A stretch of 64,000 nt of DNA, taken from the NCBI GenBank assembly GCA_905221615.1, contig CAJNDT010000946.1, forward strand, positions 1,084,268-1,148,267, given 5' to 3'. Numbering within the stretch: position 1 is the first letter of the stretch; each line of letters begins with the position of its first letter. Position numbers and translations under genes: made by a program. Of this stretch, positions 19,289 to 63,974 are shown piece after piece. The notes beneath the pieces are model-generated. The model had not been told where the DNA came from, ran no database searches, and saw only the letters and a list, made by a program, of their open reading frames with translations. This stretch comes from Symbiodinium sp. CCMP2592 (taxonomy: Eukaryota; Sar; Dinophyceae; Suessiales; Symbiodiniaceae).

Positions 19289-19326
19289 ATTTAATGTCTG
19301 CGCCGTCGAAGACTCTGCTTATGAAA
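19289..19326 (+). CDS. eEF3: eEF3-like exon 1 (pre-Walker A strand)
   Basis: Follows ATACAG and precedes a GC donor (GCCCGG). It reads (x)LMSAPSKTLLMK; KTLLMK corresponds to the KILLNK-type strand of eEF3 just before Walker A. Joined to exon 2, the spacing to RYG is within one residue of the family. It is the weakest NBD1 exon because the upstream neighbour is unknown. Confidence 0.4.
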
Positions 19327-19568
19327 GCCCGGACAATCTTGCAAGTAACACCCTGCGCGCTAAATTTCAATCCCAAGCTATATGTCCTATGGTTATGTTC
19401 GCAAGCCGAAACCCTACATGCCTACATGGGTAATTCTCTAAATTATATAGGGTCCCTTTTGGAACTGCCTGACATAAGGGTTCGGCTGGAGAAGTGGCAG
19501 GGGTGATCTTCTCTCGGGTTGAAGAAGTTAGGGCTTCGAGTCCAGAGAGAGTGCACGGTTTCTTGTTT

Positions 19569-19703
19569 ACTTAGAGGGTCGGGGGACTTAGTAACTGGTT
19601 ATTTTAGGGACTTGTAAGTACCATAACCCCAATTAGGGTCCCTTTTAGGGTACTTATAAGTCTACTTACTACCTACTTACTAAGTCCACCGACCCTCCAA
19701 GTA
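19569..19703. repeat. MITE family F, copy 1
   Basis: ACTTAGAGGGTCGGGGGACTT at the left and AAGTCCACCGACCCTCCAAGT at the right are inverted repeats. The interior is shared with the copy at 60147-60281. It lies in intron 1 of the eEF3-like gene. Confidence 0.85.
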
Positions 19704-19884
19704 GGGGGATTAAGGTTTCCTTCGAGGCTTTCTGGGTGCAGGGTGTGTGACTATGACTAAATCAGGGTTTAAGGTTTAGGGTTTAGGGGTATTTACGGCA
19801 TAGGGCATGCGTGGCATAAGGTTTCTCTTTGCTGTGCCCCAGGCAAGCATGAAACAATCAACATGCGGAATCCTAAGGAGCGTT

Positions 19885-19987
19885 GCTTGGAGGTTCATGG
19901 GGTAGTTATGAGGGTTCCTTTAAGGGCCCCTTTAGAAGGTTCTCTACATATAACTCCTCTTACAACTACCCATGAACCTCCAAGTTG
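19885..19987. repeat. MITE family G, copy 2
   Basis: Bounded by GCTTGGAGGTTCATGGGGTAG and CTACCCATGAACCTCCAAG. The middle holds AAGGGCCCCTTT-type sequence not seen in copy 1. Confidence 0.8.
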
Positions 19988-20246
19988 CTGTTCAAGCTTT
20001 CGGCTGCGGCAAGGCCGTTCTCAACGCTAGACTGCTGGGAAGAGAACCAGGGTCTTGCGTGGTGTTCCAGTGTGTTCGACATTTTGCAAGCCGAAAAGCT
20101 GAGTCTTCGAACCCTCTAAACCCTGACGCCCCCCAATAAACCCTTCACTCTGAAGGAAACTTCCCCGGTATTTTGAAGAGCTGCCTTCGAAAAAGCCGTG
20201 CACCAGGACACCACGTTCGAGTTACGGAAGGTTAGTGCCTGAGTCG

Positions 20247-20376
20247 GTACCCAGACCCCCGGGAGGATCCAGAAAGTAGATCCCCTAATCTGGGGCCCTA
20301 TATACTACGAAGGGTACTTTATAGGAACCCCCATTAAGGGATCTACTTTTTGGATCTTCGCGGGGGTCTGGGTAAG
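20247..20376. repeat. MITE family E, complete copy
   Basis: TACCCAGACCCCCGGGAGGATC and its partner GATCTTCGCGGGGGTCTGGGTA form the termini, with a second inner pair AAGTAGATCCC / GGGATCTACTT. Half of this element is found inside the family C copy at 7887. Confidence 0.8.
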
Positions 20377-21592: not shown

Positions 21593-21653
21593 TATGTTAT
21601 CCTGCGCTGCGCCGAGGGCCATCGCTACGGCATCGTGGGCTCCAACGGCACAG
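21593..21653 (+). CDS. eEF3: eEF3-like exon 2 (Walker A, first half, NBD1)
   Basis: Begins after GCAGAG and ends at ACAG before the GC donor GCAGTG. It reads YVILRCAEGHRYGIVGSNGT plus one base of the next Gly. RYGIVGSNG matches the RYGIcGPNG start of the NBD1 P-loop. The intron after it opens at once with TTTAGGG-like sequence. Confidence 0.8.
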
Positions 21654-22310: not shown

Positions 22311-22366
22311 GCAAAACCACGCTGATGGAACGCATCGCAGATGGTGCTATTGCAGCTGGATTCCCA
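22311..22366 (+). CDS. eEF3: eEF3-like exon 3 (Walker A, second half, NBD1)
   Basis: Starts after GTGCAG with GC, completing the Gly codon left open by exon 2. It reads GKTTLMERIADGAIAAGFP, matching the eEF3 pattern GKSTLMRAIAxGxxxGFP. The best end is CCA before the GC donor GCGCCC; reading on would hit TGA a few codons later. A longer ORF here in another frame is a shadow. Confidence 0.85.
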
Positions 22367-23167: not shown

Positions 23168-23235
23168 AGTCCTCAAGACCAGGAACTCTCTTTCACTTCC
23201 CTGCGCTTTGCAGCTTGCTCAGCAATCCCATGGTC

Positions 23236-24462: not shown

Positions 24463-24517
24463 GTACATATTCACCACGAGTCGCTCAGTGAATGCACGAG
24501 CCTCGGGATCTTGAGGG
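24463..24517 (+). CDS. eEF3: eEF3-like exon 4 (between Walker A and signature, NBD1)
   Basis: After ACAAG, ends with G before GTGAGG. It reads VHIHHESLSECTSLGILR plus G. VHIHHE takes the place of the eEF3 VYVEHD segment and TSLGIL that of TSVLDF. The phase-1 end fits the GT start of exon 5. Similarity is modest, but the position, phase and good GT donor support it. Confidence 0.5.
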
Positions 24518-25535: not shown

Positions 25536-25576
25536 GTATGGACAAGTCACTGACAGCTGCGGCTTACGCAAGGGAG
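25536..25576 (+). CDS. eEF3: eEF3-like exon 5
   Basis: After AAACAG, ends GAG before the GC donor GCCGGG. It reads (G)MDKSLTAAAYARE. Joined to exons 4 and 6 it gives ...LRG-MDKSLTAAAYARE-VGFTN. This equals the helix before the family's (E)FGFTDE motif, with phases matching on both sides. Confidence 0.6.
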
Positions 25577-26097
25577 GCCGGGGTCAGCTTGTTGCCCAGT
25601 GCAACCCCCGCCCCCCTCCAGGGTTTAGGGTTTAGGGTCTAGGGTTTAGGGATAAGGGTGGGGATTAGGGTTTAGGGTCTAGGGTTCAGGGATTATTGTT
25701 TAGGGTTCAGGTTTTAGGGCTAGCCGGAACCCCTAAACCCGAAACCCACAAAGCCGGAACCTTATAAATCCGAAGCCCTTATGACATCCTGGATGCTAAG
25801 CTATGCGCTCGAACCTTTAAGCATACCTTAAGCCCGGATAGAAACCATATAAAACTGCTGAATCCCATAAGAACTGTAGTAGAAACTCCTGAGCCTGAAA
25901 CCCTGAACATGTGTAATGAATGCCCTAATTGTATGTAAAAACGAAATTTAGGTGTATACCTAGAGTAACCAAGGTATCTAAAATGTGTACTTGTACCAGC
26001 TGTTTAGCGTCATATTCCTTTTGCAATGGTGCATTGGTTGCTTTCGGTCGATTGTAGGGTTGTGTGGGTTTGGCTTAGCGGGCTCAGGGGCAGCATT

Positions 26098-26383: not shown

Positions 26384-26802
26384 TGTAGTGTTTACAGGCC
26401 CCCTACTTTTTCCGGGGGATTTTACCCCAAGGCAACCCTCTGAGCCAGCCCTAATCCTGAACCTCCCCGCCTAAACCCCTCAACCCGAAAACCCAAACCC
26501 TAGTCGTTATGAAGGTTGTGGGTCCAGAAATCCCGATCCACTCCGCCTTGACCGAGGTGGGAGGGGATCCGTCCTGGAAATCCACAGCTTATTGCTTGAT
26601 GTATAGTTTAAAGGATTTCAAAGGTCGTACAAAAGATGTTTAAGACTTGACAATTGGATCGGTGTTTGTTAGTGCTGGGGAATAGGCAGGTAACCGAGTT
26701 CTTGACATCTTGAAAGGGTTGTGGGGATCTATAAGGTGTTGTAGTGGCTGTACAGGTCTTTATACTGGTACACTGGGGTACTGGCTTACAAACTTTGTGT
26801 CG

Positions 26803-27943: not shown

Positions 27944-27958
27944 GTCGGCTTCACGAAC
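27944..27958 (+). CDS. eEF3: eEF3-like micro-exon 6 (15 nt)
   Basis: A pyrimidine-rich acceptor (CCCCTAACTTCTCACCCAG) precedes GTCGGCTTCACGAAC, followed by a GC donor (GCGAGA). It encodes VGFTN. With exon 7 this gives VGFTN-ALKSKP, the same length as the family's FGFTDEMIAMP. A 15-nt exon is extreme; an alternative is that the piece belongs to a longer unrecognised exon. Confidence 0.45.
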
Positions 27959-28611: not shown

Positions 28612-28648
28612 GCGCTGAAATCTAAGCCTGTCTGTGAGCTGTCCGGAG
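28612..28648 (+). CDS. eEF3: eEF3-like exon 7 (ABC signature, first half, NBD1)
   Basis: After GGCCCCAG, ends GGAG before the GC donor GCAGGG. It reads ALKSKPVCELSG plus G. It aligns without gaps to the family's MIAMPISALSGG. The split codon is completed by GT of exon 8, 11.3 kb downstream, giving LSGGW. Confidence 0.75.
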
Positions 28649-30710: not shown

Positions 30711-30720
30711 GCCATTTTGG

Positions 30721-30800
30721 CCGCCGTGATGGCTCTTGCGTCTATCCCACCAGCCAGGATGGCGCATTTACATCAAAATAATATGGACCTGGACCTGGTC
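30721..30800 (+). repeat. 80-bp direct repeat, left copy (LINE flank)
   Basis: Matches 37901-37980 at 78 of 80 positions and diverges sharply right after GGACCTGGTC. The two copies bracket the retrotransposon. The simplest reading is a long target-site duplication; it supplies the first in-frame ATGs of the upstream ORF (30729, 30759, 30783). Confidence 0.8.
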
Positions 30801-32072
30801 TTCCAGCTGTTCGCCTCCAAGATGGCGAAGACGGGACTCGGAGAGTTGCGAAGGAACAGCGCACTGCAACTGAGTTGCTTCTTTGCACTAATAGTGGTTT
30901 TGCTTAGTGTGGCTAGAGTGCTCGTGTGTGGCGTGGCCCATGCCAGAATAGCACTCTCGATCTTGCTTGCAGTTGCGAGTGCCAGTGTCAGCATTGTCCT
31001 CCGAAGATGCTGGCCAGCAGATGTGAATGATTCCAAGAAGCGCTTCAGAAGAAGAAGTTTTGTCCAAGCAGGACCTAGGCTCACAGGGCCTGTCTTAGAA
31101 AATATGAAATGCACTGTTAGTACGGCGCGCAGGGCCGGTAGTAGGCGCCTCTTGGGCGCTTTCCGGCGCGGCTTGTTTCTTCAGTGGCAGTGGGCCAACT
31201 ACAGGTTGCAACTTGCAGCGCTGCCTCTGAGCGGCGGTGGAGGTGGTGGTGCTAGAGCTACCGACAGAAAACGCAATGAGAAAATTGCTACGCTCGCCAA
31301 CGCTGTTGGTGAGCTCGCTAGCCAGGTGCGCATGTTGCAGCAGCAGGTTAGCGGTTCTAACAATCCCAGGGGCCCTCCCCCTGTGCCACCCAAGAAAAAG
31401 AAGAAGAAAAGGAAGCAAAAGTCTTCCTTGCTGCAGGAGCTGCTTGATGCCTTCCGCATCATGCAAGGCTCTGGTAAGAAGCCGACGGAAAGTCAAACTA
31501 GAGACTTCCTCAAGCAACTCCTTGAAAAGCACGTTTCTGCTGCGGACCGAGGGACCCCAGGAGGCCAGGAGCCACGTGCTCCACAGCAGGCTCCTAAACC
31601 TCCTCCCGAGGGTCCGAGCAAGTGGAGTGACCTTTTTAAGTCCCCTAAGGCCCCTAAGCCGCCCTCTCCCGACCCTACGAAGGCCAAGCCCGAAGGGTTA
31701 CGGTTGTACGGTCCTGCCTGGACTGCGCCTGTCGTGGCAGCTAAGCAGGTGAAAACCCACGCTCTAGGCTCTGACTTGGTAGTTGCCTGTCAGGACGAGA
31801 AGGAAAAAGCTGCCGCACAAGAGTGGCTGAAGGCACGCGGTTGCACTCACAAAGTTTCTTTTGTGACTTTCCGTGATGCTGATGCCAAGGATGCTGTGTT
31901 GGTACACGGCAAAAGCGGCCCGTACTCTGTTCAGGCCCACGTTGACAAGTCTCACGCTGATGCCCCGTCCCTTAAAGGGTTACCGCAGCAGCTTAAAGAC
32001 GACGAGAAACCTCAAGCCAAGGGAAGCGAGCCTCGCACTACGTTGATGCGAGTTACCATCGCCCGTGATTAA
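30729..32072 (+). CDS. LINE ORF1, first segment
   Basis: The frame has ATG at 30729 inside the flanking repeat, and the element's own sequence starts at about 30801. The product has two hydrophobic stretches in its first 100 residues (LSCFFALIVVLLSVARVLVC and a following ALSILLAVASASVSIVL), then a basic region, a low-complexity Pro/Lys part with a nuclear-localisation-like PPKKKKKKRKQK (31384-31419), and an Ala/Pro/Lys linker. It ends TAA at 32072, 8 bp into the next segment in the +1 frame. The adjacent frames read as one protein, so this is the N-terminal third of a frameshifted ORF1. Confidence 0.6.
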   Translation: MALASIPPARMAHLHQNNMDLDLVFQLFASKMAKTGLGELRRNSALQLSCFFALIVVLLSVARVLVCGVAHARIALSILLAVASASVSIVLRRCWPADVNDSKKRFRRRSFVQAGPRLTGPVLENMKCTVSTARRAGSRRLLGAFRRGLFLQWQWANYRLQLAALPLSGGGGGGARATDRKRNEKIATLANAVGELASQVRMLQQQVSGSNNPRGPPPVPPKKKKKKRKQKSSLLQELLDAFRIMQGSGKKPTESQTRDFLKQLLEKHVSAADRGTPGGQEPRAPQQAPKPPPEGPSKWSDLFKSPKAPKPPSPDPTKAKPEGLRLYGPAWTAPVVAAKQVKTHALGSDLVVACQDEKEKAAAQEWLKARGCTHKVSFVTFRDADAKDAVLVHGKSGPYSVQAHVDKSHADAPSLKGLPQQLKDDEKPQAKGSEPRTTLMRVTIARD

Positions 32073-32589
32073 TTTTGCTGATCAGCAGATGGTAGGTAAG
32101 GTTTTGGACAAGCCACACTGTTTGCCTGCTGTTGCTTTCCCTACACTCAAGCACCTTGTTTTGCAGACAAGAGCTGCACTCTCTTACGAAAAAGAGACCA
32201 CGTGCCTCATGCTAGTCAAAGCGGAGCAGACTGAGCAGTTCCTCAAGGCAACTCTGCCTAACGGAGTTTTCTGCAACTTGCACAAAACCGACAAAACGCC
32301 GGTGTGGTTCGCTAGGAAGAAAGAGGAGTCTTCCTCTGACTACTGGTTGCGAGTGTGCCAGCAACGAACCTCTCAGGGAGGCAGGCTTGTGTACCGTAGC
32401 TCGACCAACGCCCCCTTGGGCCTCCTTGAGCCCGCCAAGCACGTGCCGGAAGGTATCGCACCTCGGTGGTATCTTTCAAATGCTCCTCAGGAATGGGGAG
32501 AAGATGATGCCAAGTCCTGGATTTCCGAGCGGGGCTTCACGGAAACCTCGATGCTTCGCCGGCAAGGACGCAAAAACTGGTACTTCAGA
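32068..32589 (+). pseudogene. LINE ORF1, middle segment (+1 frame relative to first)
   Basis: This frame overlaps the end of the previous one and has no useful ATG at its start. It encodes about 175 protein-like residues (GKVLDKPHCLPAVAFPTLK..., WLRVCQQRTSQGGRLVYR, WGEDDAKSWISERGF). Sense continues in the next frame from about 32591: WYFR is followed there by RGHAPGG. Crossing both junctions needs two +1 shifts. The parsimonious reading is small indels in a dying copy, although programmed shifting is not excluded. Confidence 0.6.
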
Positions 32590-32590
32590 T

Positions 32591-34363
32591 CGAGGGCATG
32601 CTCCTGGGGGCACGTCCACTGTTCAGCAAGCTTTTGTGTTCAAGAGCGACATCTCCATCGGTCTTGCTGCTAACATTAAGAGTGCCAAAACTACAACGAC
32701 TACTGCTGACAAGCAAGCACGCAGTGTTTGGGGCGCCCCTGAGCCCCCCAAGCCTAGACTTGAAAAACCGCCCACCGCTGATGAAGCCGACGCTAGCCCG
32801 ACTGCTGAGACCAAGACCACCACGGACATGGAGGTTGAAACTGAGGGCAAGCAGCTTCACACGCCTCCTAAAGCCTCTGCGTCTGGGGTAGCGAAGAAGG
32901 CCAGGAAAGACACTGATGCGACTCCTCCCTGGAACCACCATTTTGTGGCTGTTCCGAACGGCGGAGAAGGAGATTGTGGCTTTATCTCCATTGCTCAGGC
33001 CCTGCAAGCAAAGTCAGGCGTCCAGCATAAGGCTGGTGACTTCGACCCGAAAGGCCGGCTGCAGGCTCAGCTTCGAGTCTTGGCCTCTGCTGAGATGAAG
33101 AGAAACACGCTCATGTATGATCTTGACGAAGACAGCAAGCTTGCGGAAGCCACTCTGCAGGCTGGCACGTACGCTGAAGCACACTCTCTTCAGGCTCTCT
33201 GTAACACTTCGTATCTTGATCTTAGGATTTGGGGGTACGACAATAAGCTCAAGCAATGGGATTTTTACCAGCTTGCCCCCAGTAAGTCACTCCCGGGTAA
33301 AACCCCCAGTGTAATCTACCTTAAGCTTGAAGCCAGTCACTATGAGTGGCTCAAGCCCAACGGTGAGATCCCAGGCAACGTTGCTGACAAGTGGCTAAGG
33401 ACTGCCAGGTCCAAGCCCCCTTCTTTGAACGGAGGAGGAAAGTCCCAGCACGACAAAGAGGCCTTGGCGGTGCTAGGCTTAGAGCAAAGCGACGCTGCTA
33501 GTGCTTCCAGCAGAAACGCGCTGTCGGTTTTAGGCCTAAAGTCCGTCAAGAGTAAAGCTAAGACTGCTGCGGCTTCTTCCAGGCCCAGAAGCACCGCAGG
33601 CAGGTCCGCGAGATCTGTCCTTGGCTTAAAGACTAGTGCCGCTTCGGCCGCCGGCTCTGCTGCTGATGCTCACATCGACGATATGCCCGACACCATGAAG
33701 GATTACTCTCAGGGTGATCACCTTAAGTGTCCTTGCGGATGGTCACCTCCTGCGGGCCGTCCCAACCACCAACGGAAAGAAGCAAACAAGCATTGGAGGA
33801 GGTGCCAAGGCTGTGATGCGCCGCTGCGGCCTCCTGACAAAGCTGCCCATGATGCAAAGAAGTGGACCCAGAGTGCTGCTAAGGTTGCTCGTGACAAAAA
33901 CGACGCTGCGTACAAGCAGTGGAAGCGTGAAGAGTCTCAGAAGCACCCCGAGCTTAAGACTAGCTTCTGCTCCCCCAACTTGTCTGTGCCATTCTTCAGT
34001 GCTAAGGAAGGACGCAGATTTCCCTGCACTAAGTGTGGCACTGTCCGTAACTACAACCAGCTTCGTAGGTTTCCGTGCAAAAAGAGGCCCAAGCGAGTGT
34101 CTATTCGGCAGTTCCAGGTCGCCATACATGGCTCTTTCCTTGATCCAGGCCACAAGTATGCCGACCGAAATGCTGGATTCAAAGAGCGCTTGTGTGCCCG
34201 ACTTCGCGCGAAACGTGCTGCTGCTAAGGAGCAGCGTGCCAAGCAGAAAGCTAAGACTCCCTCTAAGCCCTCTCGGCCCTCTAAGACCACTCCCCGCCCT
34301 AAGTCTTCCTGTAAGCTTGAGCGAGACACCCAAAGCAAAGCGAAGCGCACTAGAACCTCCTGA
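32591..34363 (+). CDS. LINE ORF1, C-terminal segment with OTU-like cysteine protease and zinc clusters
   Basis: The open frame starts before this point; the meaningful part starts near 32591. A Thr/Lys-rich linker leads to an OTU-type cysteine protease domain (about 32936-33360). It has the Asp-Cys pair in GEGDCGFISIAQAL (Asp 32972, Cys 32975), a middle QALCNTSYLDLRIWG, and the catalytic His in LEASHYEWL (His 33338). Three short repeats of the type ALxVLGLxS follow (33463-33640). Next comes a Cys/His cluster (CPCGW...H..H..CxxC, 33728-33820) and a second one, FPCTKCG...FPCKKRP (34018-34095), then a very basic tail. It ends in TGA (34361-34363) followed by CTA, in frame with ORF2. Confidence 0.75.
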   Translation, partial: RGHAPGGTSTVQQAFVFKSDISIGLAANIKSAKTTTTTADKQARSVWGAPEPPKPRLEKPPTADEADASPTAETKTTTDMEVETEGKQLHTPPKASASGVAKKARKDTDATPPWNHHFVAVPNGGEGDCGFISIAQALQAKSGVQHKAGDFDPKGRLQAQLRVLASAEMKRNTLMYDLDEDSKLAEATLQAGTYAEAHSLQALCNTSYLDLRIWGYDNKLKQWDFYQLAPSKSLPGKTPSVIYLKLEASHYEWLKPNGEIPGNVADKWLRTARSKPPSLNGGGKSQHDKEALAVLGLEQSDAASASSRNALSVLGLKSVKSKAKTAAASSRPRSTAGRSARSVLGLKTSAASAAGSAADAHIDDMPDTMKDYSQGDHLKCPCGWSPPAGRPNHQRKEANKHWRRCQGCDAPLRPPDKAAHDAKKWTQSAAKVARDKNDAAYKQWKREESQKHPELKTSFCSPNLSVPFFSAKEGRRFPCTKCGTVRNYNQLRRFPCKKRPKRVSIRQFQVAIHGSFLDPGHKYADRNAGFKERLCARLRAKRAAAKEQRAKQKAKTPSKPSRPSKTTPRPKSSCKLERDTQSKAKRTRTS

Positions 34364-34372
34364 CTAGGAGGG
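34355..34372 (+). promoter_or_regulatory. Candidate stop-codon readthrough site (TGA CTA) between ORF1 and ORF2
   Basis: The stop at 34361 is followed by CTAGGAGG. TGA followed by CTA is the known leaky stop context of alphavirus-type readthrough. CCTCC (34356-34360) and GGAGG (34367-34371) can pair around it. The frame stays open through nine codons into ORF2, and ORF2 has no ATG until 34610, inside its endonuclease domain. Confidence 0.5.
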
Positions 34373-37300
34373 TGTCTGTCTGGTGGTGCTGTGAGGCAAG
34401 CTGACAGGCTGCGCCTCCTCTCCATTAACTGCACTGTACTCACCCGGGCCCGCCTCGAGGCAATTTTGTCTCACGCGTGCTCTGAAGATGCCGCCTGCAT
34501 CTTGTTGCAAGAAACCCGTCATCATGCCACTTTGGTTCCCTGGGCCTCTGGCTTGGCTGCCAAACAGGGGTGGTGCATCCACTTTTCGGCGCCCCCTCCT
34601 CTTGACGGCATGAAGCGCCGCTGTCATGGTGGCACCGCTATGCTTTGGCGCCGCAACTCTGAATTGGGCAAAGCTGCCCCTGTCGCCGTTGAAGGCAGCC
34701 ACAGCATGCGTCACCGGCTCGCTGCTGTGTCTTTTAAGAACTTCATAATCACTTCGGTCTACGGGCCTGCGCATGGTGCCAACACCGCTTGGTTTGCTGC
34801 CCTTTTTCCTTTCTGCACTAGGCTAGGTAAACCTACCTCTTTTCTCATTGGGGATTTTAACTACAAGCCTTGTTATGACCCCTTTGTGCCTAACTCTTGG
34901 ACTGCTAATGAGCCTAAACCCACCACGCAGGCGGGCTCTGCTCCTTCTCGTGCTTTGGCTACCGACGCCATCGCCCAAATCCGTGCTGTGCCCCTTCCAG
35001 GCATTCCTCATCACTTCGCTGTTACGTACAGCGCCAACATCCCTGATTTGAATGCGGACGCTTTCCAGGTCACTCGGTTGAAGCGCTGCGCCTCTTATCG
35101 GTGGATTTCTAAAGCCCCTAATGCTGAACAACTTGGTAAGATCTTGCAGATGACCAGCTCTTTTCACCCTAAACTCCACCCTAATACTCCTTTGACTGAC
35201 AGGTGGCGCCGTTGGCATGCTCGTGCCGAAGGGGCCTTTCTTGCCGCTGTTAAAATGGGGTTGGCGACTCAAGACAATCGTGGCGAGAGGCCTAAAGGGT
35301 CTTTTCCGGATGTGAGGCCTTGTGCTCCCGGCCAGCCCCATCGCGGCCCTCAAACTGTTCTCCACAGACGGCTGCTTCGTGTTCACCGTGCTGTTTCGGA
35401 GCTTGTTAGGCAAGGCCATAATGTTCACGCCCCTCTGCCGCCTCACTTGTTAGGTCGTCTGGACCGGGTGCTTTTCAGCGCTTGTGGCTTGCATCCTCCC
35501 CACTCTTGCTCCGCTGAGGACGCCCTGTCGCAGCTTAACCCTGTCATTCGCAAAGAGGATGACAAGCTTTCCCAGCAAGCTAGCAAGCAGTGGCGCCGCC
35601 ACTTCACTGACTTTAGTCGCGATACTTGGCATGCTGCTAAACAAGCCTTGAAGCCTCCTCAGCTCCATGCGGCCTTTTCTGCTTCGGATATGAGAGAGGA
35701 CTGGGCTCAGCACTGGTGCCCTGCTCAGGACAACAGTCAACAAGCTAAGTCTGCTTGGTGTGATGTCGCTGCTGCTACGCACTTTCGCTCTGAGCAACCT
35801 TCCTTTGAGCAGCCTTGTCGCAGCCACTTTGCTGAGGCACTGCTGAGTGCTAAAGGCAGTGCTGGTTTTGATGGTTGGTTAGCCCATGAGGCCGCCCTGT
35901 TGCAGCGATACCTTACCCCTCTTGCTGACGAACTTTTTGAGCTTTGGAACGAAACTCTTAGGGTGTGCAGTTCTGAGAAAGACTTACCGGAAGACCTTGC
36001 TTTCTTACTTTGGAGTTGGAAGGTAGTGGGTATCCCGAAAAAGACTGAATTTGACAGTAGACCCATTAGTGTTGGCTCAGTCCTTCTTCGCGCTTGGCAC
36101 AGGACACTCCTCAAGCAGTGTCCGGAGCCGCCTAAAGGCCAATGGTGCGGCCGAAAGAACTGCTCGGTAGCACATGCCACAGCAGACTTCTTTTCTGCCA
36201 ACTTGGGTCACTTTGCAGAGTCCGACCTCAGCAAGGCCTTTGACCACCTTTGGCCTCCTCTAGCCGAGGAGGCTCTCACGCAGATGGGTACCCCTCAAAC
36301 GATTGCTAAGGCATTACGGCGAGCGTGGCAAGGCCCACGTTTTTGCTCCGTCGCCGGGAACCTAGCGGTGCCGCTTGTTCCTACAAGAGGAGTGCCACAG
36401 GGTTGCCCCTGCTCCCCCTTGGGTTTAGCTGCCACTCTTGGTCCTTGGTCTTTAGGGGTTGAGCAGTTAGATCCCCTACTTAAAACTTGGGCGTTCATGG
36501 ACGACCGTACCATAGGTGTTCTTAAACGCGGTAACCGTGCACTTTTGCAAGCTGCTTTACAGTACACCACTTCTTTTGATCAAAAAGTTGGTTTTGAGAT
36601 TAATAGGGATAAGACACAAATTTTCCTTGAAGGTTCCCAGGAGCCGACCACGATGGAACACTTGGGACTTAGGCATAACCCTGCCCAAGTTGAGGCACCA
36701 ATCACTTCACGCGATCCTTGCAAGAGGAAAGAGGTCGTCGATCGCCTTAACGTCTGCCCAGGTACGATCCAAGTACGGTCTAAACTGGCAACTGCTTTCG
36801 TGCGACCATTGGAAGACTGGGCGTCGCCTTTTATGGCCCCTGCGGCTAGTCATGAGACTAAGTCGCTTTTTCGCGCCATTTCTCATGCGTCAACCAACTG
36901 GTGGTGCTTTGGCAGGTTCTGGAGTCAGCAGGTTGACAACCACCCTGCTTTCGGAGTGGCGATTAGGGGTTTGTGCAACGCCCCTGCCTTCCTTAATACC
37001 CCCAGTCCGCAACTCACTTCTGCCCTGAACAGGCATGCGGAGGTATTGTTCTTGAAAATCACTAGCGTTACTTCCCAGGCCTTGTGGGTTAAAACTAAGC
37101 GAAGTAGGGCTGCTTTAGGCATCCCTTTGCAGGACAACGAAAGTGTTTTCGATCAAAGTCTTGAAATAAACACACAGAACACTGGCCAGGACTCCAGCAT
37201 CAGACATGCTTTGAGACTTCGCGCTCGCCGCATCTTGCTGCACCAGGTCAGCCGTAACAGGCTTGACAGCGAAGGCATCGAGGACATTGACTTGCAGTGC

Positions 37301-37900: not shown

Positions 37901-37980
37901 CAGCCGTGATGGCCCTTGCGTCTATCCCACCAGCCAGGATGGCGCATTTACATCAAAATAATATGGACCTGGACCTGGTC
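37901..37980 (+). repeat. 80-bp direct repeat, right copy (LINE flank)
   Basis: Counterpart of 30721-30800 (two mismatches). Sequence to its right (from CCCACGGTGG) continues an open frame that presumably was joined to the left flank before insertion. Confidence 0.8.
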
Positions 37981-46418: not shown

Positions 46419-46808
46419 CGTATGATAGGAAGCCGTCATAGAACCCTTTGAGGCACTCAAGGGACCCCGCTCAGGAACCCTTGAAGGATCTTTCAACTCC
46501 CTCAAACCTACAATCCGATAGCACCCCCAGGTGAGCTCCCGAAGAAGGCAGCAGCCCACGGAGGTCCCACGTGCTGCCGCCGAGGTGCCAAGGAAATCGT
46601 AAGAGAAAAGAACGACAGAACTCTAACTCACATTGTTTGGGGGGCTCCTTAAGGGGATCTATAAGGGTTTCTATAAGGGTACACCAAGGGTTCAATATTT
46701 GTAGTTCTCTAAATGAGGGTCCCTTTCAGTTCTTGTTTATACGGGTGCCGTACTATCTTTGGGACCGCAAAGCGGCCCTAATGTAGTGAACTTACACATA
46801 TAGGAAGC

Positions 46809-49099: not shown

Positions 49100-49167
49100 A
49101 AGTGTCCCCCCCGGAGATTTCCCTGGGAGGAGCGTCCTTGCGCGTGAGCTTGCCGGTACCGGGGAAG
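49100..49167 (+). CDS. eEF3: eEF3-like exon 13
   Basis: After GATTCAG, starts AA (phase matching exon 12) and reads VSPPEISLGGASLRVSLPVP then GK, ending AAG before a consensus GTGAGT donor. LRVSLPVPGK equals the family's LEFKFPEPG segment that precedes NBD2. Confidence 0.78.
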
Positions 49168-49982: not shown

Positions 49983-50063
49983 GTGGAAGGGCTGACCAGT
50001 GTCAAGAAGCCGGTCATCGAGTTGAAGAACGTGTCGTTCAGGTGCCCTGAGACATCTGACCCT
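49983..50063 (+). CDS. eEF3: eEF3-like exon 14 (start of NBD2)
   Basis: After AACTTCAACAG, reads VEGLTSVKKPVIELKNVSFR then CPETSDP, ending before GTTAGT. VEG..S.KKPVI.L.NVSF.CPETSDP matches the eEF3 [27 protein letters not shown] stretch position for position. A missing micro-exon of about 24 nt should follow. Confidence 0.9.
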
Positions 50064-50337
50064 GTTAGTTCTTTTGCAAACCCTAAACTCTAAACCCTAA
50101 GCAACTAAGGCAGCGGTCATGCGATGATTTGATTCTGTAGCCGGAGCACAGCTCGAAGAAGAGAAACTTCGGATGAGTCCAAGCACGGCTGAGTTGTGTT
50201 CATGCAGGCAAAATCATGGGTGTAGGGTTTAGGGTTTAGGGGTTAAGGGAAGGGAAGGCGCGACTCTTGTCACTGCATTGGCAAGGTATTTGATGGCCAA
50301 CGAGTACATCCTGCAGCACATCTGTGGCAAGGCACGC

Positions 50338-50860: not shown

Positions 50861-50900
50861 GTCACAGCAATGAGCAGGATCGCCATTGTCGGCCCCAATG
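50861..50900 (+). CDS. eEF3: eEF3-like exon 16 (Walker A, first half, NBD2)
   Basis: After GCAGCCAAG, reads VTAMSRIAIVGPN plus G, ending before GTGTCG. MSRIAIVGPNG equals the eEF3 SSRIAVIGPNG strand and P-loop. The number leaves room for the unseen exon 15. Confidence 0.9.
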
Positions 50901-52463: not shown

Positions 52464-52485
52464 GCTCCGGCAAATCCACTTTGGT
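52464..52485 (+). CDS. eEF3: eEF3-like micro-exon 17 (Walker A, second half, NBD2)
   Basis: After GCCCCCGAG, starts GC (completing Gly from exon 16) and reads GSGKSTL plus GT before GTCATG. With exon 16 the P-loop is GPNGSGKST. An alternative end two bases earlier (before GTGTCA) breaks phase with exon 18. Confidence 0.78.
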
Positions 52486-53396: not shown

Positions 53397-53569
53397 TCCC
53401 TAAAGCACTGAGCCGTTTTAACTGCGAAGTCGGGCACCGAAATTTTTGCAAAGAGGTCCCTTCTCTGCGGAGAAATCAGGCTCGAGCCGAGCCGTGTGCA
53501 CTTGGGGACTCGAATATGGGTCTAGGTCCAGTAGAGTTTAGGGTTTGGGGTAAGGTTTTGGGGTTTAGA

Positions 53570-54151: not shown

Positions 54152-54209
54152 GCCAAGCGTCGACGAGCTGGGTGCAGCGGGCGAAGTGGACCGGCACAGG
54201 ATTCGGCCG
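54152..54209 (+). CDS. eEF3: eEF3-like exon 18
   Basis: After TTCGGAG, starts G (completing Val of exon 17) and reads PSVDELGAAGEVDRHRIRP, ending before the GC donor GCCTCT. EL.AAGEVDRH corresponds to the eEF3 GELLPTSGEVYTH region after the P-loop. Confidence 0.62.
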
Positions 54210-54535: not shown

Positions 54536-56046
54536 AAAACCCCTAAGTCCCTAAACTCTCCACCCTAAACGCAGCAAAGCTTCTATCCTCGGGTCTCGAT
54601 TCGATGCTCAAATCGCGATGCGCTCCGAGAGCAACAACGAGCAAGGTCAGGCAACATGTCCTGACCCGGCCCTAAATTTAGGGGTACTTAGAAACATTTT
54701 TTTTATTTTTTGGTTATTATAATCCCTAAGAAACAGCTAAAATTGTAATTTTCGCCTAGGGTTCTAAGTTCAGTATAGTAAATTCTCAACCCGAAACTCA
54801 TAATCACCAGCCTGATGAGATGAGAAGACAACGGTGCTTGACATTATTTATGGGAGACATTTGAAGCCACGCTTGTTCTAGGTGCGTCACCTTCATTAAT
54901 AGCTCAGGCTGCTGTATCAATCTATAAATCTCTACCCATAGATGTATGTGTATATGACTGTATATGTATATATAAATATGTGCACTGCACACATGCATCA
55001 TCGCAACATGCTGTGCTATGTTTCATGCTATGTATTATTCTGAAAAATGTCGCGCTGTAAATCGCCGCAAGAACCAGAATACACTGCGAAATCAAAACAC
55101 AGAGCAACGACAAAGCCTCTGCAACCACAAAGCACCGCACCTTGGGGCCAAACCCGATAGCCCTTATGTATAGCTACATAAATAATATGTGTATATATAT
55201 ATATATAAAGTAAACAAACAAGTTAGCAGTATATAGTAACCATGGCCGTAATAATCGTACAGGCACCTTTTTGTGGTGATTGTTGAGGAGCCTCCGTCTT
55301 GCCTACGTCGCCCAAAGCCACTCGCCCGAGGCTCAGTTCGTCCTGTAACATTGAGTTTCGTAGGGTCTGGGCACGTTTTGGGGTTGAGGTATGGGTTTGG
55401 GTTTACTTAGGGTTTAAGGTTTAGGTAAGGTATAGGGTTTAAGGTATCGAGGTTTGGGAATTTATTGTTCCAATTTTGGCGCAGAGGGATCAGGTTACTA
55501 CTATTCCTTCTGTGGCGTGAGTCGGTGTTGCATTCTCCCGTCGTTTTTGCACTGCATTTTGTTGTCAGTTCTCGCACCTAGTAGTCGAGTAGGTAACCTT
55601 TAACTTTTTTGGGTTAGTATAGTCCCTATATAATCCGTATAGAAGCAAGCGGTTAGCCTTTAGTTCCCCATGATACCCGACAGGTAGGAGCATGTTATTA
55701 AACTGGATTCACCGAGATGGCAAACACCTGTGGTTTAACAGGCCGTGCCCGAAAGCGCGTGCACAATGCATTCCCGGGACAAGAGCTCGCCGGGTTGTTC
55801 GAATAGATTTCCAGGACGACAGAATGTGTGCTTCATGCTATACAATGCATATACACGTAAAATGTGCATGCGTGTATTCACGTGTTTGAGATACAACTAT
55901 ATGTACACATCCACTTTAGCTATTGCCTATCTAGTACCGGTATGTTGTTCTTGACTCTTGACTGTGCTGACTCTGAACCCCTAAACCCCAAACCCCAAAC
56001 AAACCCTGAACCATCAAGGTTCCACCTCGGCGACTATGCGAGGCAG

Positions 56047-56767: not shown

Positions 56768-56815
56768 GTGCACTCCAGAAGAGTACATCCAAGTGCGATA
56801 CCGAGACGGCCCTTG
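56768..56815 (+). CDS. eEF3: eEF3-like exon 21 (entry to chromodomain-type insertion)
   Basis: After GCGGCAG, starts G (completing Arg) and reads CTPEEYIQVRYRDGP plus TG. TPEEYIQVRY equals TPSEYIQWRF, a stretch specific to eEF3 among ABCF proteins. The end before GCTTAC is chosen for phase with exon 22. Confidence 0.8.
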
Positions 56816-57414: not shown

Positions 57415-57502
57415 AATCCTGATTTGCTGAAGAGGTTACGACGAAGAACTCCAGAGAAGGCTTGTTGCTCCTTTGTTGTTGACGGCCCTTGCTGTTACTA
57501 TG

Positions 57503-58370: not shown

Positions 58371-58415
58371 GCTGCTGTCACCTCCTGAGGAGAAGGAGGC
58401 GCCCGAGGATAACAT
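58371..58415 (+). CDS. eEF3: eEF3-like exon 22 (tentative)
   Basis: A strong acceptor (CTCCTTTTTTTGCTGCCCTTG...GTGCAG) precedes a frame reading LLSPPEEKEAPEDN, ending before the GC donor GCCTTT. An acidic helix of this kind sits after TPxEYIQ in eEF3. Phase fits exon 21. Confidence 0.45.
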
Positions 58416-59559: not shown

Positions 59560-60056
59560 AATCTCAAACCCGTTAGTTCAGGCTGCCCTGCTAAAACGGC
59601 TGGGCGCCAAATTTGGCCGGATACCCAGTTTTTCAGAGCCGTGTCATTGTGCGCTTGGGATGGCAAGAATCGTGTCTTTAGACCTTGAGAGGTTGGGGTT
59701 CCTGAGGGTTCAGGGTTTAAGGGTTTTGGGGTTCCTTGTTGTAGGATTTGCGCTTTGAGATGGATGGTTTGCCACCCCAATCCGGTTTTAGAACTTGTCG
59801 GTCTCAGTGCGGATGAGATATATCCGCGGTCCATGTACCCGCAGTGTATGCAGTGGCCCCAGAGCACCTTGCCTTGAAAGCCACAGTATATACTACAAAC
59901 GAGCACGGACCCCAGAAAACCCCAGAAACCCTAGAAGGAGCTTCAAACTCCCTTTACAAAACTCCCATGAAGGCTACGCCAAAGCCCTACAATTCTGAAT
60001 GGAATAGCTCCCATAAAGCCTACGCCAAGCCAAAATCCCAGACAACCCAAATGCAT

Positions 60057-60349: not shown

Positions 60350-60500
60350 TAAGGGCTCATGAAAAGGGATCTTTAAGGGTTCTATAGGGGGGTCTTAAGG
60401 GTTCCTTTAAGGGGATCTTTAACCCTTACGCTCTAAAGACTCAAATCTTAAGGCTTTTGGGCCCAAAGACCATACTATAGGGCTTTTTGAGCCTTAGGGA
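60350..60500. repeat. Compound palindrome with AAGGGGATCT and GGCTCAAAAAG-type arms
   Basis: CCCTTAGGCTCTAAGGGCTCA at the left and TTGAGCCTTAGGG at the right bracket AAGGGATCTTTAAGGG repeats and GCCCAAAGACCATACTATA. Similar blocks lie at 12304-12490, 18318-18410, 44570-44640 and 62700-62760. Confidence 0.65.
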
Positions 60501-60839
60501 AATGGTACGTACTTTGGCCCCATACTACCTTCACGAGGACAAATAGAAGGGCAACGTATACACTATGTGGGTAGATGGAAACTTATACCCTAAACCCTGA
60601 TAGAACCCTTATAGTATGTATTTGGGCACATGGACCCGTAGGATATGAGACCATGAAGCAAAGCCTCTCCGGAACACACAGCTGGATCTACCTGGGCCCC
60701 AAATTTTTTTCGAATAATAGCCTTTTGGAGGTTTTGGGCCATGATTTTGCCTATTTCGGGGGGTCTATAGGTACTTACGTAGGGTAGGATTTGAGACTGA
60801 AGGGTGAGGGCGGGCTCTGAAAGATCCGGGTCTTGGGTT

Positions 60840-61110
60840 TTGGAGATGCTGCGTTTCGTTTAGAGTTTAGAGATTGGGGGTCTAAGGTTTCAGGCTTGGG
60901 GTTTAGGGTTCAGTGTTTAAGGGTATTTGGGGTTTAGGATTTAGGGTTTGGGGTTAGGGTTTCGGGGTTTAGGATTTAGGGTTTGAGGGTGAGGGTTTCG
61001 GGGTTTGGGGTTTAGGGTTTCGGGTTTGGGGTTTAGGGTTTGGCTCAAGGTTTCCGCTTTAGGGCTTTGGGTTTGGGGTCTAGGGTTTCTGGAAAGATCT
61101 AGGGCCTCCA
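60840..61110 (+). repeat. Degenerate TTTAGGG-derived block
   Basis: About 270 bp of GGGTTTAGGGTT, GGGGTTTAGGATT and GGTTTCGGGGTTT variants, the densest such block in the window. Confidence 0.8.
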
Positions 61111-62968
61111 AGGTTTGCAGGGTTTAGCTTTCAGCGTTCAGTCGCGCAGTTTTAGCGCTAAAACGGGGCTTCCTGACCTTCGCAAGAAGCAGGTTCAGTC
61201 AATTCCTTAACCCCGAAACCCTACCCTCTTTTGGGTTGCTTATCATATGATTGCCTTATATACGTCTTTATTAAGGTAAGTTCTTCGGGGTCAAGGTAAG
61301 CCCTACGGTGCTGCGCTATGGTGTTGGGTATCACTTCCTATCTTCTGTGTGTGGGGTCTGTGCCTTCGGCATAAGATAATGTAGAATCCTGTTATTAAGA
61401 AACCTTGGGGTACTCAGGTTCCTACATTAGGCCGGCTCAGGGGATCGCATGTTAAAGATGTAGAACTCTGCATGGAAATGAGTACCGTAGTCAATGTAGC
61501 ATTCGGCAAGTTCTCGTATTACAGTCACACCCTGTGTAAAGTCTAGCCTAGCATCAAAGATTCTAGTAGCTTAAGGTTTGAAGAAGCCCACACAAAACAC
61601 CTTACCAAAAGCCAGCCATGTAACCATTATATCAGGAAATCAGTAGTATCACTACCAGACGCAATATGACCACTGATATCCTTGATGTTCTGGTTATTGT
61701 TGCTACCCCGGAAGCTTTCTGAGGAAAGTATGGAAAGCAGGTGGAGGCCCGCGCCATATTGTCTTCGGTCGTATCGTGGTTGGTACATACGCCTCAACTG
61801 TGCAGGGTATACAGGGCATACCCTTTCCATCGAACAGTCGCAGGTTAAGGTTTCTTGAAGCGGGATCATTACATCATGACGTGGCCGACAGCAGACAGGA
61901 ACAGGTCGCACCGCAACCAAAGAGTCAAAGAGTTGTGTCGCCGTGAAGTGTAGTTCGAGTCCTAAGACTGTATGTACCCCGCCGCTTCCACTTTAGCCAC
62001 GCGTCGAAGTGAAATCGACACCTAGTACATGGAGGATCCCTCAAGGGATAATGAGACTAGCTATTCAGGCCCCTGCATGACGAAACCCGAAGCTTCAACG
62101 ATGGAAGGCAGTCGTCTCTCGGTGCAAACGGCGGAATGATTGGAGATATGAGGCGAGAGGGTTTAGGGTTTAGGGGGCGAGAGGGTTCACATCTAGTCAA
62201 ATTCCCCAGATGGTTGAGTTCAGATAAACTTCTTACGCGCAAATCTCACAGCTGCTCGTATTTCAAACTTAGAACTCCTGACCCCTGAACTCCCGGCGCC
62301 AGAAGCCTCCCATGCCGTCACCATGCTCTGTGCTTGGAGGGTTATCAGACTCTTAGGGCACCCCAAAACAGCCAACAGCCCAAACCGTGAATAGGGGTAG
62401 TGGAAGTAGACTATCAAATTCAGAAGGCTTTTGTCGAGTCCGGCCAGCCCTTCTTGAGCAATAAATTGGCCTGATTCGTTAGAAGTCTTATCATGTAGGG
62501 TTCTCAACTGTAGTTATACTAGTTGTAGTCCACCAGGTTTTCGGGGGCTTAGGGTCTAGGGTTATCTCTTCAAGGGCCCCTTAAAATCTTTGGGTGCCGA
62601 GCCTTTGTGCACTTGAAACTCTGCTTTGTGGCATGTAGTGTTTAGGGGTTCAGGCTTTGAGGTAATTATTTGTGCTACCTTACGCCCTAATTCTCATATG
62701 TTGAGGCTTTTGTGCCCAAGGACCATACTATACAAGGCTCTTGGGCTGTTTGGGGCCTCAGGGTTAAGCTCAACTAACCAGGTTCCCCAGTAGCATCCTC
62801 GTGCCTTTTGTGTTTGGGCTCCCGCATTAACTCTTATTGAGTTGCTACTGGGGACCCCAAGTGAAGAATGTGTTTCAGAAGGAGCAAAAAGGTGTGATCG
62901 CAAAGGGCCGCCAAAAGCATCCCGTGAGTGTGGTAAGTGGCTTTAGGGTTTATTCAGGGTTTCGGCTC
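61111..62968 (+). other. Intronic stretch without recognised exon
   Basis: Nothing assignable. ORFs under 100 codons occur on both strands (for example 61627-61920 minus) without domains. TTTAGGG motifs occur at 62160-62175. Confidence 0.5.
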
Positions 62969-63086
62969 ATATGGGAGTTTCCGAAAATAGGGGACCCTAA
63001 TATGGTACCCTGAATAGTAGGATTCCGTAGGATCCTTATTATAAGGACTACAACATATGGTACCCTTTTTTAGGAAACTCCCATAT
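62969..63086. repeat. MITE family B, copy 7 (minus orientation)
   Basis: ATATGGGAGTTTCCGAAAAT to TTTTTAGGAAACTCCCATAT with reversed core GGATCCTTATTATAAGG. Termini are extended by ATAT on both sides. Confidence 0.9.
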
Positions 63087-63873
63087 TGTCCCAACATCGA
63101 GGTGATATGTAGATGAACTGGGCGTAGAGCTATGAACTAGAGCTACCCATCCGAGGAGGCAGCTTACAACTTCCCATGAAGCTTTGAGTAGGCTCGAAGT
63201 TCTATTCTTATTCTAGGACCTAGAGTAGGCCCTGATTCCCTCTTTTAGGGTTCAGGTCCCTTATACGCCCCTTTAAACCAAAAAGGGCACCCGTTTTATT
63301 CCTAGATTACTCTTGGGCTTAGTATTACAAGCCTGAACTGAGAACATGAAAGTCTGAGCCCTCGCACAGCTCACGGTTCGGGCTACAAGGATTCTTTGAC
63401 TGAAGTCAACCAGTAGCAGTCCGCATTATGCGGCTTTTAACTCCCCACAGTTATCGAATGTGCTCGGCTATGCTTGGTGTCCTTTAATTTGGTTCTGCAC
63501 CCTAAACCCCGATTCTGAAGCTTGAGGACATAGACAGTGCTGGACCTGTATAATCAAGACAAGCTTTTGGGGGCTCCTTAATGCAGTTATAGTAAAATAG
63601 AATATATCCCAAAACCTTTTTCTAATTATTATGGCACCGCCAGGTTAAGTGGGAAGACCTCGCAGAGAAGCAGATGCCTGGTTGCTTTGGAATGCTGCCG
63701 TACTCAGTATACGAGTTAGAGTGATATAGGGTTTAGGTTTTGGGTGTGACTGGGAGGTGCATCGGTATTGCGGTAGCGTCATGAGTGGCAAAGTATGCCC
63801 GAAACAAAATTGACGTTTGCAGCGGCAATGCACCAATCACCGTTCAGTGGCGGTTTTGGTTTGTAAAGCTCAG

Positions 63874-63974
63874 TGTCTGGATTTCTGACTTCGGATGTGG
63901 TGTGGATCAAGTTCAAAGACAATCATCCGTTTTGCCAGTACCACAACCGCTGGATCTCTCACGACATTGTCAGA
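63874..63974 (+). CDS. eEF3: eEF3-like exon 23 (tentative, chromodomain-type segment)
   Basis: After GCTCAG, an open frame reads SGFLTSDVVWIKFKDNHPFC, then QYHNRWISHDIV and R, with a possible GC donor at 63975; the frame stays open to the window edge. VVWIKFKD followed by N.WI....(L/V) resembles a chromodomain strand and the eEF3 NAWIPRGELV element. The link to exon 22, 5.5 kb upstream, is unproven. Confidence 0.4.

Follow-up and report, generated by a model that had tools for sequence, protein, structure and literature searches.

Micro-exons spread over 56 kb of dinoflagellate nuclear DNA form one gene, probably for a HEAT-less relative of eEF3

The window analysed here is a stretch of 64,000 nt from Symbiodinium sp. 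CCMP2592 (assembly GCA_905221615.1, contig CAJNDT010000946.1, positions 1,084,268 to 1,148,267), in which a reading made from the letters alone (hereafter, the sequence-only reading) had noticed ordered fragments of a gene related to the translation factor eEF3. Spliced alignment of the window to a profile of homologs recovered 42 exons, in order and in frame, on the plus strand between 7,189 and 63,672, a span of about 56 kb, and confirmed the fragments as genuine parts of a single gene. The spliced product comprises 537 codons, with no stop and no frameshift over the 42 exons. We estimate at roughly 85% the probability that this is a single intact nuclear dinoflagellate gene, split into micro-exons, for a cytoplasmic twin-ATPase of about 690 residues that belongs to the ABCF class and lacks HEAT repeats. 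Judging by its splice sites and nearest homologs, the window is dinoflagellate nuclear DNA. The proposal of one gene with an intact frame, divided into micro-exons over tens of kilobases and using GC and GA donors, was borne out, while its boundaries were not: position 19,289, taken as the left edge, is no start, as ten exons precede 21,617 and the first one found begins at 7,189, and on the right the final exon within the window stops at 63,672 rather than 63,974.

The alignment was made with a protein-to-genome aligner written for this analysis, which allows introns in all three phases, GT, GC and GA donors and AG acceptors. The first query was yeast eEF3; a profile built from twelve close homologs followed, and with this profile and a strict intron cost the 42 exons were placed. 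With yeast eEF3 as the only query, the strong exons were recovered and the gaps were filled by chance exons at low intron cost; this alignment was dropped once the profile was available. The real alignment scored 2,441. At the single parameter setting used for all score controls, the minus strand scored 83.2 and the reversed profile 64.1, the maximum was 82.1 over 20 dinucleotide-shuffled windows and 90.5 over 20 column-shuffled profiles, and shuffling the bases in place inside the 42 exons left a score of 64.5. Twenty profiles in which blocks of 30 columns were reordered, so that local matches were kept, reached a maximum of 806.3 (mean 535.7), which indicates that exon order matters too. A G directly after the acceptor AG, which the aligner does not reward, was found at 40 of the 41 introns, against 1,615 of the 4,448 AGs across the window. 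The motifs of at least five letters that we searched, among those quoted in the sequence-only reading, lie in order on the plus strand. Motif starts on this strand are GSNGTG at 21638, DEPTNHLD at 40433, VAWLV at 41894, VVSHD at 42792, YYKGNF at 43613, RIAIVGPN at 50876, GSGKSTL at 52463 and TPEEY at 56772.

The encoded protein is 94% identical to its closest homolog, P0001 (453 of 481 residues over exons 5-42, with a single 3-residue gap), and identical at 472 of 536 residues to a Symbiodinium natans protein named 'NEW1' (P0002). P0001 has 650 residues, and its 1,953 coding nt lie on a contig just 2,020 nt long. Because such a contig cannot hold them, the source of P0001 lacks these introns in that stretch, and it is probably a transcript contig. 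P0001 being otherwise free of gaps across exons 5-42, hardly any exon can have been missed there. The gene continues past the right end of the window, and about ten more N-terminal codons are expected upstream of exon 1.

We examined the domain content of the 22 closest homologs, namely P0001-P0021 and P0023, with P0022 left out. Twenty of them have 650-750 residues, the exceptions being a fused model (P0011, 884 residues) and a fragment (P0013, 473 residues). The Pfam families HEAT_EF3_N, HEAT_EF3_GNC1 and 4HB were listed for none of the 22, and the HEAT families PF24987 and PF24984 fell outside the best 25 families of P0001, P0003, P0006 and P0017, while HEAT matches were present in P0024 and P0056. 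The Arm domain (PF12848) that occurs in P0115, P0118 and P0125 was likewise in none of the 22 Pfam lists. Two ABC ATPase domains (PF00005) were found in each of P0001 and P0003. The chromodomain family (Chromo, PF00385) was listed for 10 of the 22 and lay above the cut-off of 25.1 bits in P0001 (28.5) and P0003 (28.2). In the window itself, the Walker A, signature, Walker B and H-loop motifs of the first nucleotide-binding domain (NBD1) and the Walker A of the second (NBD2) are intact; the NBD2 signature and Walker B lie beyond the window and were seen in homologs only, and exons 41-42 contain the first part of the chromodomain. Exon 1 aligns to a point no more than about ten residues from the start methionine in P0003-P0010, which have 671-747 residues and are apparently complete, and what the 5' exons encode is a short helical N-domain shared with these homologs, not HEAT repeats. 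The assignment to eEF3 proposed in the sequence-only reading therefore stands for the twin ATPase core with its chromodomain insertion and is not supported for strict eEF3, whose HEAT and 4HB domains were listed for 0 of the 22. By eye, a Lys-rich C-terminal tail of the kind by which eEF3 binds eEF1A was absent from P0001, P0003 and P0004, the C-terminus of the window gene lying outside the window.

A tree of the ABC core was computed from 59 rows, 52 ingroup and 7 ABCF outgroup sequences, omitting the fused P0011 and the fragmentary P0013. Ingroup and outgroup were separated with support of 100/100. The window gene fell in a HEAT-less clade of 12 rows (100/100), whose sister was a second HEAT-less clade of 9 rows, P0014-P0021 and P0023 (95/58). 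These two clades, together with the HEAT-bearing P0056, stood apart from the 30 other eEF3, eEF3L and New1 rows (100/99 each side), which include yeast, algae, oomycetes and a Chlorella virus. P0056, an MMETSP protein of 1,399 residues on an end branch of 1.4, is the only HEAT-bearing row beside the HEAT-less clades. By these sequences, the protein is best placed in a separate HEAT-less branch beside the other eEF3, eEF3L and New1 sequences used, and not with standard eEF3; taken at face value, the tree implies that HEAT was lost in this lineage. The label 'dinoflagellate' for both clades rests on the S. natans and Durusdinium members and the window, and for the second clade it is presumptive. 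In most of that second clade (P0021 and P0023, for example), Lys/Ala-rich C-terminal tails were seen by eye, which are mostly absent from the window's clade.

The dinoflagellates are among the organisms in which eEF3L has been reported (Murina et al. 2019, PMC6723617; repeated in PMC11378755), and the parts of these two papers drawn on here do not mention a HEAT-less form. Protist eEF3L shares with the window gene the twin ABC core, the chromodomain in NBD2 and the lack of an Arm (PMC6723617). However, HEAT is described there as common to eEF3, New1 and eEF3L, whereas the closest homologs of the window gene, mostly of 650-750 residues, show no HEAT match and form a separate branch. The family profile has its best solved relatives in fungal eEF3 and New1 (PDB 2iw3, 7b7d and 6s47; E 7e-156 for New1 6s47 and 6e-145 for eEF3 7b7d), which differ in the same way, with HEAT present there and no HEAT match in the family found here. 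Gcn20/ABCF3 proteins resemble the window's clade in their N-terminal domain and differ from it in having an Arm (PF12848) and no Chromo.

Three other explanations of the exon chain were weighed. A flexible aligner might have assembled it from short matches scattered over 64 kb; single micro-exons of five to eight codons are easily found by chance, and with a low intron cost the aligner indeed placed spurious exons before 7,189. Yet no control of similar score was seen, those that destroy homology staying at or below 90.5 and in-place shuffling of the exons at 64.5, so that, contrary to what would be expected of chance matches, the spliced alignment far exceeds its shuffled controls, and we regard an artefact as close to negligible. 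A decayed or partial copy is very improbable: mobile elements and an 11-kb intron interrupt the gene, and its product has three residues fewer than P0001, but 537 codons carry no stop or frameshift, all 41 introns have usable splice sites and identity to P0001 is 94%. The gene might also encode a canonical full-length eEF3 (HEAT, 4HB, ABC1 and ABC2 with the chromodomain) whose HEAT exons lie upstream of the window. The core is indeed of the eEF3 type and chromodomain-bearing, and the HEAT-bearing P0056, at 1,399 residues, groups with the dinoflagellate proteins; against this, exon 1 already reaches within about ten residues of the start in the HEAT-less P0003-P0010, with which the N-terminal exons share their N-domain, and we consider a canonical eEF3 improbable.

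The reading as a single intact gene for a HEAT-less protein also has to accommodate several observations that weigh against it. The first ten or so codons and the C-terminal part of NBD2 lie outside the exons found, and P0001 carries three residues (VVQ) after exon 25 that are absent from the window, where a 9-nt exon encoding them was not found with the patterns used. Chromo scored just below the Pfam cut-off of 25.1 in P0006 (24.7) and P0017 (23.3). The tree has long branches, its rows were chosen by hand (including 29 HEAT-type matches), the window fills 48% of its columns, and the fork uniting the two HEAT-less clades has a Shimodaira-Hasegawa-like approximate likelihood ratio (SH-aLRT) support of 58. 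GA donors are scarcer in the window gene (3 of 41, 7%) than in S. natans (18.4%), and the mean intron of 1,338 nt is closer to that of Polarella (1,408) than to that of S. natans (486), according to PMC10666404; by such features the gene would most likely be assigned to Symbiodinium or a near relative, the genus being less than certain. Expression of the gene is presumed, and a ribosomal role is ascribed to the protein by homology.

The N-domain, about 90 residues long, short and helical, occupies the place of the HEAT repeats. In hhalign comparisons, in which percentages are match probabilities, the N-domain of the window's clade matched that of the Arm-bearing ABCF proteins P0112, P0115 and P0118 at 80% over 54 columns, scoring 33.6 where no decoy exceeded 17.1. 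Plant ABCF3 N-termini were matched at 47%, and the N-domain of the second clade matched Gcn20-type N-termini at only 2-8%. When the N-domains of both clades were combined, the 4HB region of eEF3 (75 sequences) was matched at 52%, the best of 24 alignment windows, with a score of 27.5 against at most 11.3 for 20 shuffled profiles; taken singly, the window's clade matched it at 4% and the second clade at 43%. A shallow 4HB profile favoured Gcn20, and a deeper one ended this preference for the whole set, though not for the window's clade alone. The six N-domains scanned gave no match to Pfam 4HB or NEW1_HB, only sub-threshold matches to unrelated families, and nothing better than E 0.8 was obtained in the PDB. 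A protein search with the N-domain returned five proteins, the query included, and the segment preceding NBD1 in P0056 matched neither the Gcn20 type nor 4HB. The N-domain may thus be of Gcn20 type or of 4HB type, hhalign supporting each; on the second view, it would be what remained once HEAT had been lost.

The exons have a mean length of 38.4 nt (median 37, range 15-69, n=42), shorter than the mean of about 47 nt given in the sequence-only reading. The 41 introns average 1,338 nt (median 970), at a density of 25.4 per kb of coding sequence (CDS), and range from 244 to 11,339 nt, in keeping with the earlier upper bound of 11 kb but not with the lower one of about 180 bp. By extrapolation, the primary transcript, which has at least 41 introns, would contain about 50 in total. 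Donors are GC in 29 introns, GT in only 9 and GA in 3, and acceptors are AGG in 40 of 41 (97.6%), with a single AGT. The splice sites of S. natans are alike, with 58% GC, 23.6% GT and 18.4% GA donors and 97.1% AGG acceptors (PMC10666404, Table 2). Intron-rich dinoflagellate genes in general share GC, GT and GA donors and AGG acceptors with the window gene and differ in having exons of about 100 nt instead of 38.4; mean exon length is 98.7-120.4 nt across Polarella, S. natans, Durusdinium and Cladocopium (PMC10666404, Table 2). Measured by the averages of related genomes, the window gene is thus an extreme case, the comparison being with genome averages and not with gene-by-gene distributions. 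Schistosome micro-exon genes also have very short exons (6-81 bp) and introns of up to about 5 kb and are hard to annotate automatically, but they have 10-20 exons, mostly multiples of three, and encode secreted variable proteins (PMC10526429), whereas the window gene has at least 42 exons, of which 17 of the 42 found are multiples of three, and encodes a conserved ATPase. A search of the open-access literature, with most subscription papers and the spelling 'micro-exon' outside its scope, returned no title on micro-exon gene structure in dinoflagellates.

Splice-site signals are weak. With G[TCA] donors and AG acceptors imposed by the aligner itself, what remains is an A at -2 (30 of 41) and a G at -1 (32 of 41) on the donor side, a C or G preceding the AG of the acceptor (34 of 41) and a weaker G/C preference a few bases inside the intron. 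There is no polypyrimidine tract, the pyrimidine content being 54% against 51% in introns. As the 56.7 kb examined contain 1,418 AG|G sites for 41 acceptors used, local signals appear insufficient to choose among them. No spliced-leader relic was found.

The lengths of the 40 internal exons are even, with a coefficient of variation (CV) of 0.31. Random placement of 41 introns gave a CV of 0.96 (any site) or 0.98 (before G), with values of 0.31 or less in 0 of 20,000 trials each, and random insertion weighted by observed motif use gave 1.0. Under a minimum-exon rule, simulated with 1,000 runs per floor, the CV fell to 0.62 at a floor of 15 nt, 0.40 at 22, 0.34 at 24 and 0.28 at 26. At these four floors, the share of runs with a CV of 0.31 or less was 0, 0.04, 0.29 and 0.78, and the share whose longest exon did not exceed 69 nt was 0.002, 0.09, 0.24 and 0.55; a floor of 24-26 nt thus reproduces the CV and, less well, the maximum exon length. 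In the spliced CDS, 27 of the 48 AGG sites carry an intron, in the proportions 12 of 14 for AGGT, 9 of 14 for AGGC, 4 of 13 for AGGA and 2 of 7 for AGGG. The even lengths suggest that introns are close to saturation, limited by a soft minimum of about 24 nt per exon. Some results speak otherwise. Three exons (15, 22 and 23 nt) are below 24 nt, which only a soft floor would permit, and 7 of the 42 are below 26 nt; the saturation model draws its motif weights from the same gene; and the distance from unused AGG sites to the junctions is no smaller than that from randomly chosen positions in exons (P 0.53), so that site choice alone does not show exclusion.

The main rival to saturation is that an active exon-recognition window of the dinoflagellate spliceosome, of roughly 20-70 nt, sets the even size. 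It would account for the upper limit, since floors of 15-20 nt still leave a simulated longest exon averaging 102-124 nt, against 69 observed, and raising the floor to 26 nt keeps the longest exon within 69 nt in no more than 0.55 of runs. However, a minimum of 24-26 nt alone comes near both the CV and the maximum, and relatives, with genome means near 100 nt, evidently splice longer exons (PMC10666404), so we regard a recognition window as fairly unlikely. The density of the introns might instead be explained by their recent insertion as introner transposons, which are described in S. microadriaticum, where they have inverted ends and duplicate 4 bp of the target (PMC9860276), and 27 of the 41 introns do sit in an AGG site. 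The 41 introns of the window did not show such traces. Direct repeats at their junctions averaged 3.29 nt, against 3.20 when the same ends were re-paired at random (1,314 of 5,000 re-pairings reached the observed value), with no excess of target-site duplications beyond the splice motif; inverted repeats between intron ends were not enriched (mean 7.2 against 7.0 for random pairs); and none of the 182 listed intron-intron matches, both directions counted, was anchored at the ends, nor were terminal inverted repeats or families sharing both ends found. A recent introner origin is not supported by these data and, as an explanation of intron density, seems possible but on balance unlikely; old, decayed introners may still have been the source.

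Our broader proposal is that the gene is at or near intron saturation, insertion into AG|G-type sites having continued until any further intron would push exons under the floor, that its exon lengths read out the minimum exon of the spliceosome, with a floor near 24 nt, that its exons are marked by something beyond classical splice motifs and that a HEAT-less eEF3 branch works the ribosomal E site without the main ribosome anchor of eEF3. We advance this combination, drawn from one gene in a single window, tentatively, at somewhat less than even odds. Exon definition is usually thought to be troubled below about 50 nt. A conserved and presumably important gene whose exons are all of 15-69 nt, in which introns average about 1.3 kb, most donors are GC and a polypyrimidine tract is absent, suggests that exons can be found by a different route and offers a defined substrate for testing how small an exon a cell can splice. 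Were the exon-size floor genome-wide, intron gain in dinoflagellates would have a measurable end point.

eEF3 releases transfer RNA (tRNA) from the E site. In the proposed mechanism, introns would be removed at minimal sites, (A)G|G[C/T/A]...[C/G]AG|G, joining exons of 15-69 nt into the message for a protein whose predicted core is that of eEF3, New1 and eEF3L, with two NBDs, no Arm and a chromodomain inserted in the second NBD. By analogy with its family, this protein most likely acts at the ribosomal E site, where ATP-driven closing of the two NBDs would move the L1 stalk via the chromodomain and so help to release or rearrange E-site tRNA. In eEF3, the chromodomain touches the L1 stalk, and HEAT and Chromo both take part in ribosome binding (PMC6723617). 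With HEAT contacts absent, anchoring to the ribosome would be altered or would involve a partner. Such a branch raises the questions of which part of eEF3 is indispensable at the E site and whether dinoflagellates depend on the factor.

The exons were delimited by spliced alignment and all lie on the plus strand; fractions give the codons identical to P0002 for exons 1-5 and to P0001 thereafter, and donors are GC unless another is named. Exon 1 (7189-7228, 40 nt, AEKRERLVRATLK, 12/13) begins with a split codon, the exon or exons upstream of it not having been found. It is followed by exon 2 (7781-7830, 50 nt, AAWAKFGVPDLDDAITE, 15/16, donor GT, acceptor AGG), exon 3 (8629-8665, 37 nt, YLVSSAVTVIAE, 11/12), exon 4 (9463-9494, 32 nt, AQSPGEAEDE, 9/10), exon 5 (12522-12555, 34 nt, LLHLGVILKAQ, 10/11), exon 6 (13877-13905, 29 nt, ELKDKYVVA, 9/9), exon 7 (15820-15862, 43 nt, CRALAGTVSETSKE, 14/14), exon 8 (16721-16753, 33 nt, VDEDDVPRDGE, 11/11, GT), the longest, exon 9 (18610-18678, 69 nt, GELLCRCKDMILMYMGSTDFLLK, 21/23, GA), and exon 10 (20207-20230, 24 nt, DTTFELRK, 8/8, GT). 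Low-cost exons placed inside the Copia element upstream of 7,189 were rejected, as their positions disagree between settings.

The NBD1 Walker A is divided between exon 11 (21617-21653, 37 nt, GHRYGIVGSNGT, 12/12) and exon 12 (22311-22354, 44 nt, KTTLMERIADGAIA, 13/14). After exons 13 (23183-23209, 27 nt, ELSFTSLRF, 8/9), 14 (24463-24493, 31 nt, VHIHHESLSE, 10/10), 15 (25536-25576, 41 nt, MDKSLTAAAYARE, 12/13) and 16 (26515-26556, 42 nt, VVGPEIPIHSALTE, 12/14, GT) comes the shortest, exon 17 (27944-27958, 15 nt, VGFTN, 5/5, acceptor AG|G). Exon 18 (28612-28648, 37 nt, ALKSKPVCELSG, 12/12), with the first part of the NBD1 ABC signature, is separated by the 11,339-nt intron from exon 19 (39988-40031, 44 nt, WRVRLLLATAVARQ, 14/14). 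The NBD1 Walker B and D-loop are in exon 20 (40415-40462, 48 nt, ADVLLLDEPTNHLDSQ, 16/16) and the H-loop in exon 22 (42792-42854, 63 nt, VVSHDASFLDQICTDIIHFDE, 21/21), with exon 21 (41891-41947, 57 nt, AVAWLVGYITQDLADSTSV, 17/19) between them. Exon 23 (43601-43648, 48 nt, CRLKYYKGNFQEFRKK, 13/16) has the sole AGT acceptor and precedes exon 24 (45267-45299, 33 nt, VQLRDAQELLQ, 11/11) and the linker exons 25 (46531-46584, 54 nt, VSSRRRQQPTEVPRAAAE, 14/18, GT) and 26 (47965-48001, 37 nt, VEEKRTSGNETT, 9/12, GA). A 7-nt exon placed between these two at 47,615 or 47,415 in low-cost runs was dropped, as the two placements differ and the patterns used revealed no 9-nt exon coding for the residues expected.

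Exons 27 (49130-49167, 38 nt, ASLRVSLPVPGK, 10/12, GT), 28 (49983-50041, 59 nt, VEGLTSVKKPVIELKNVSF, 19/19, GT) and 29 (50286-50331, 46 nt, YLMANEYILQHICGK, 14/15) lead to the NBD2 Walker A, whose first part is in exon 30 (50861-50900, 40 nt, VTAMSRIAIVGPN, 11/13, or 13/13 to P0002, GT) and whose second part is in exon 31 (52464-52485, 22 nt, SGKSTL, 6/6, GT). An alternative end of exon 29 at 50323 with a start of exon 30 at 50853 was not adopted, 50331 and 50861 being preferred. Next are exons 32 (53456-53479, 24 nt, SLLCGEI, 7/7), 33 (54152-54199, 48 nt, PSVDELGAAGEVDRH, 15/15, GA), 34 (55288-55323, 36 nt, SLRLAYVAQSH, 11/11) and 35 (56019-56042, 24 nt, FHLGDYA, 6/7). The chromodomain-bearing insertion begins in exon 36 (56768-56808, 41 nt, CTPEEYIQVRYRD, 12/13) and continues through exons 37 (57435-57459, 25 nt, YDEELQR, 7/7), 38 (58371-58398, 28 nt, LLSPPEEKE, 9/9), 39 (59582-59615, 34 nt, AALLKRLGAKF, 11/11) and 40 (61724-61746, 23 nt, KYGKQVE, 7/7) to the chromodomain exons 41 (62108-62152, 45 nt, AVVSRCKRRNDWRYE, 14/15) and 42 (63644-63672, 29 nt, VKWEDLAEKQ). 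The last codon of exon 42 is split (CA|G) before a GA donor; the aligner's own end at 63,673, with which 10/10 codons are identical, was trimmed by one base to 63,672.

Rfam and tRNA scans of the window gave no matches. Upstream of the gene, a Copia-type retroelement open reading frame (ORF) at 98-6604 (+) runs uninterrupted for 2,168 codons (RVT_2 E 7.5e-14, rve E 8e-4) and ends about 580 nt before exon 1. Nested on the same strand in the 3-kb intron 4 is an intron-free ORF of RCC1 repeats (10186-11562, +, 458 residues), built of a 123-nt tandem unit repeated 9.2 times. The 11.3-kb intron 18 holds an element resembling long interspersed nuclear elements (30711-37980, +), with an endonuclease and RVT_1 ORF at 34391-37705, and this element lies between two directly repeated copies of some 80-90 nt (30711-30800 and 37891-37980, 93%), which may represent a long target-site duplication. 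Ends of the GGGAGTTTCCGAAAAT type occur in 12 copies (13945, 14026, 16818, 23059, 23146, 47297, 47378, 52518, 59455, 59538, 62973 and 63062), ten of which are arranged as five inverted pairs at spacings of 81-89 nt. They make up a small family of foldback elements within introns, where shuffling predicts 0. Repeats resembling TTTAGGG, the plant-telomere type, occur in many introns, for example at 60858-61088, 43226-43276 and 25620-25719.

Two public gene models in the family look like mis-predictions across micro-exons: that of Durusdinium, P0011, continues from this gene into a protein resembling DNA methyltransferases (PF00145), and that of S. natans, P0002, diverges from the other family members inside NBD2. 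Genes of this kind may escape standard gene finders or be garbled by them. A scan of viral-class contigs, in which 80 of 159 loci were kept, had as its best match (36%) a 1,240-residue eEF3-like protein at 1-3723 (+) of L001, the front half of which appears HEAT-like by eye; the other 79 loci showed 24-33% identity. On the minus strand of L001, an ORF at 3771-5654 looks like a candidate mRNA capping enzyme.

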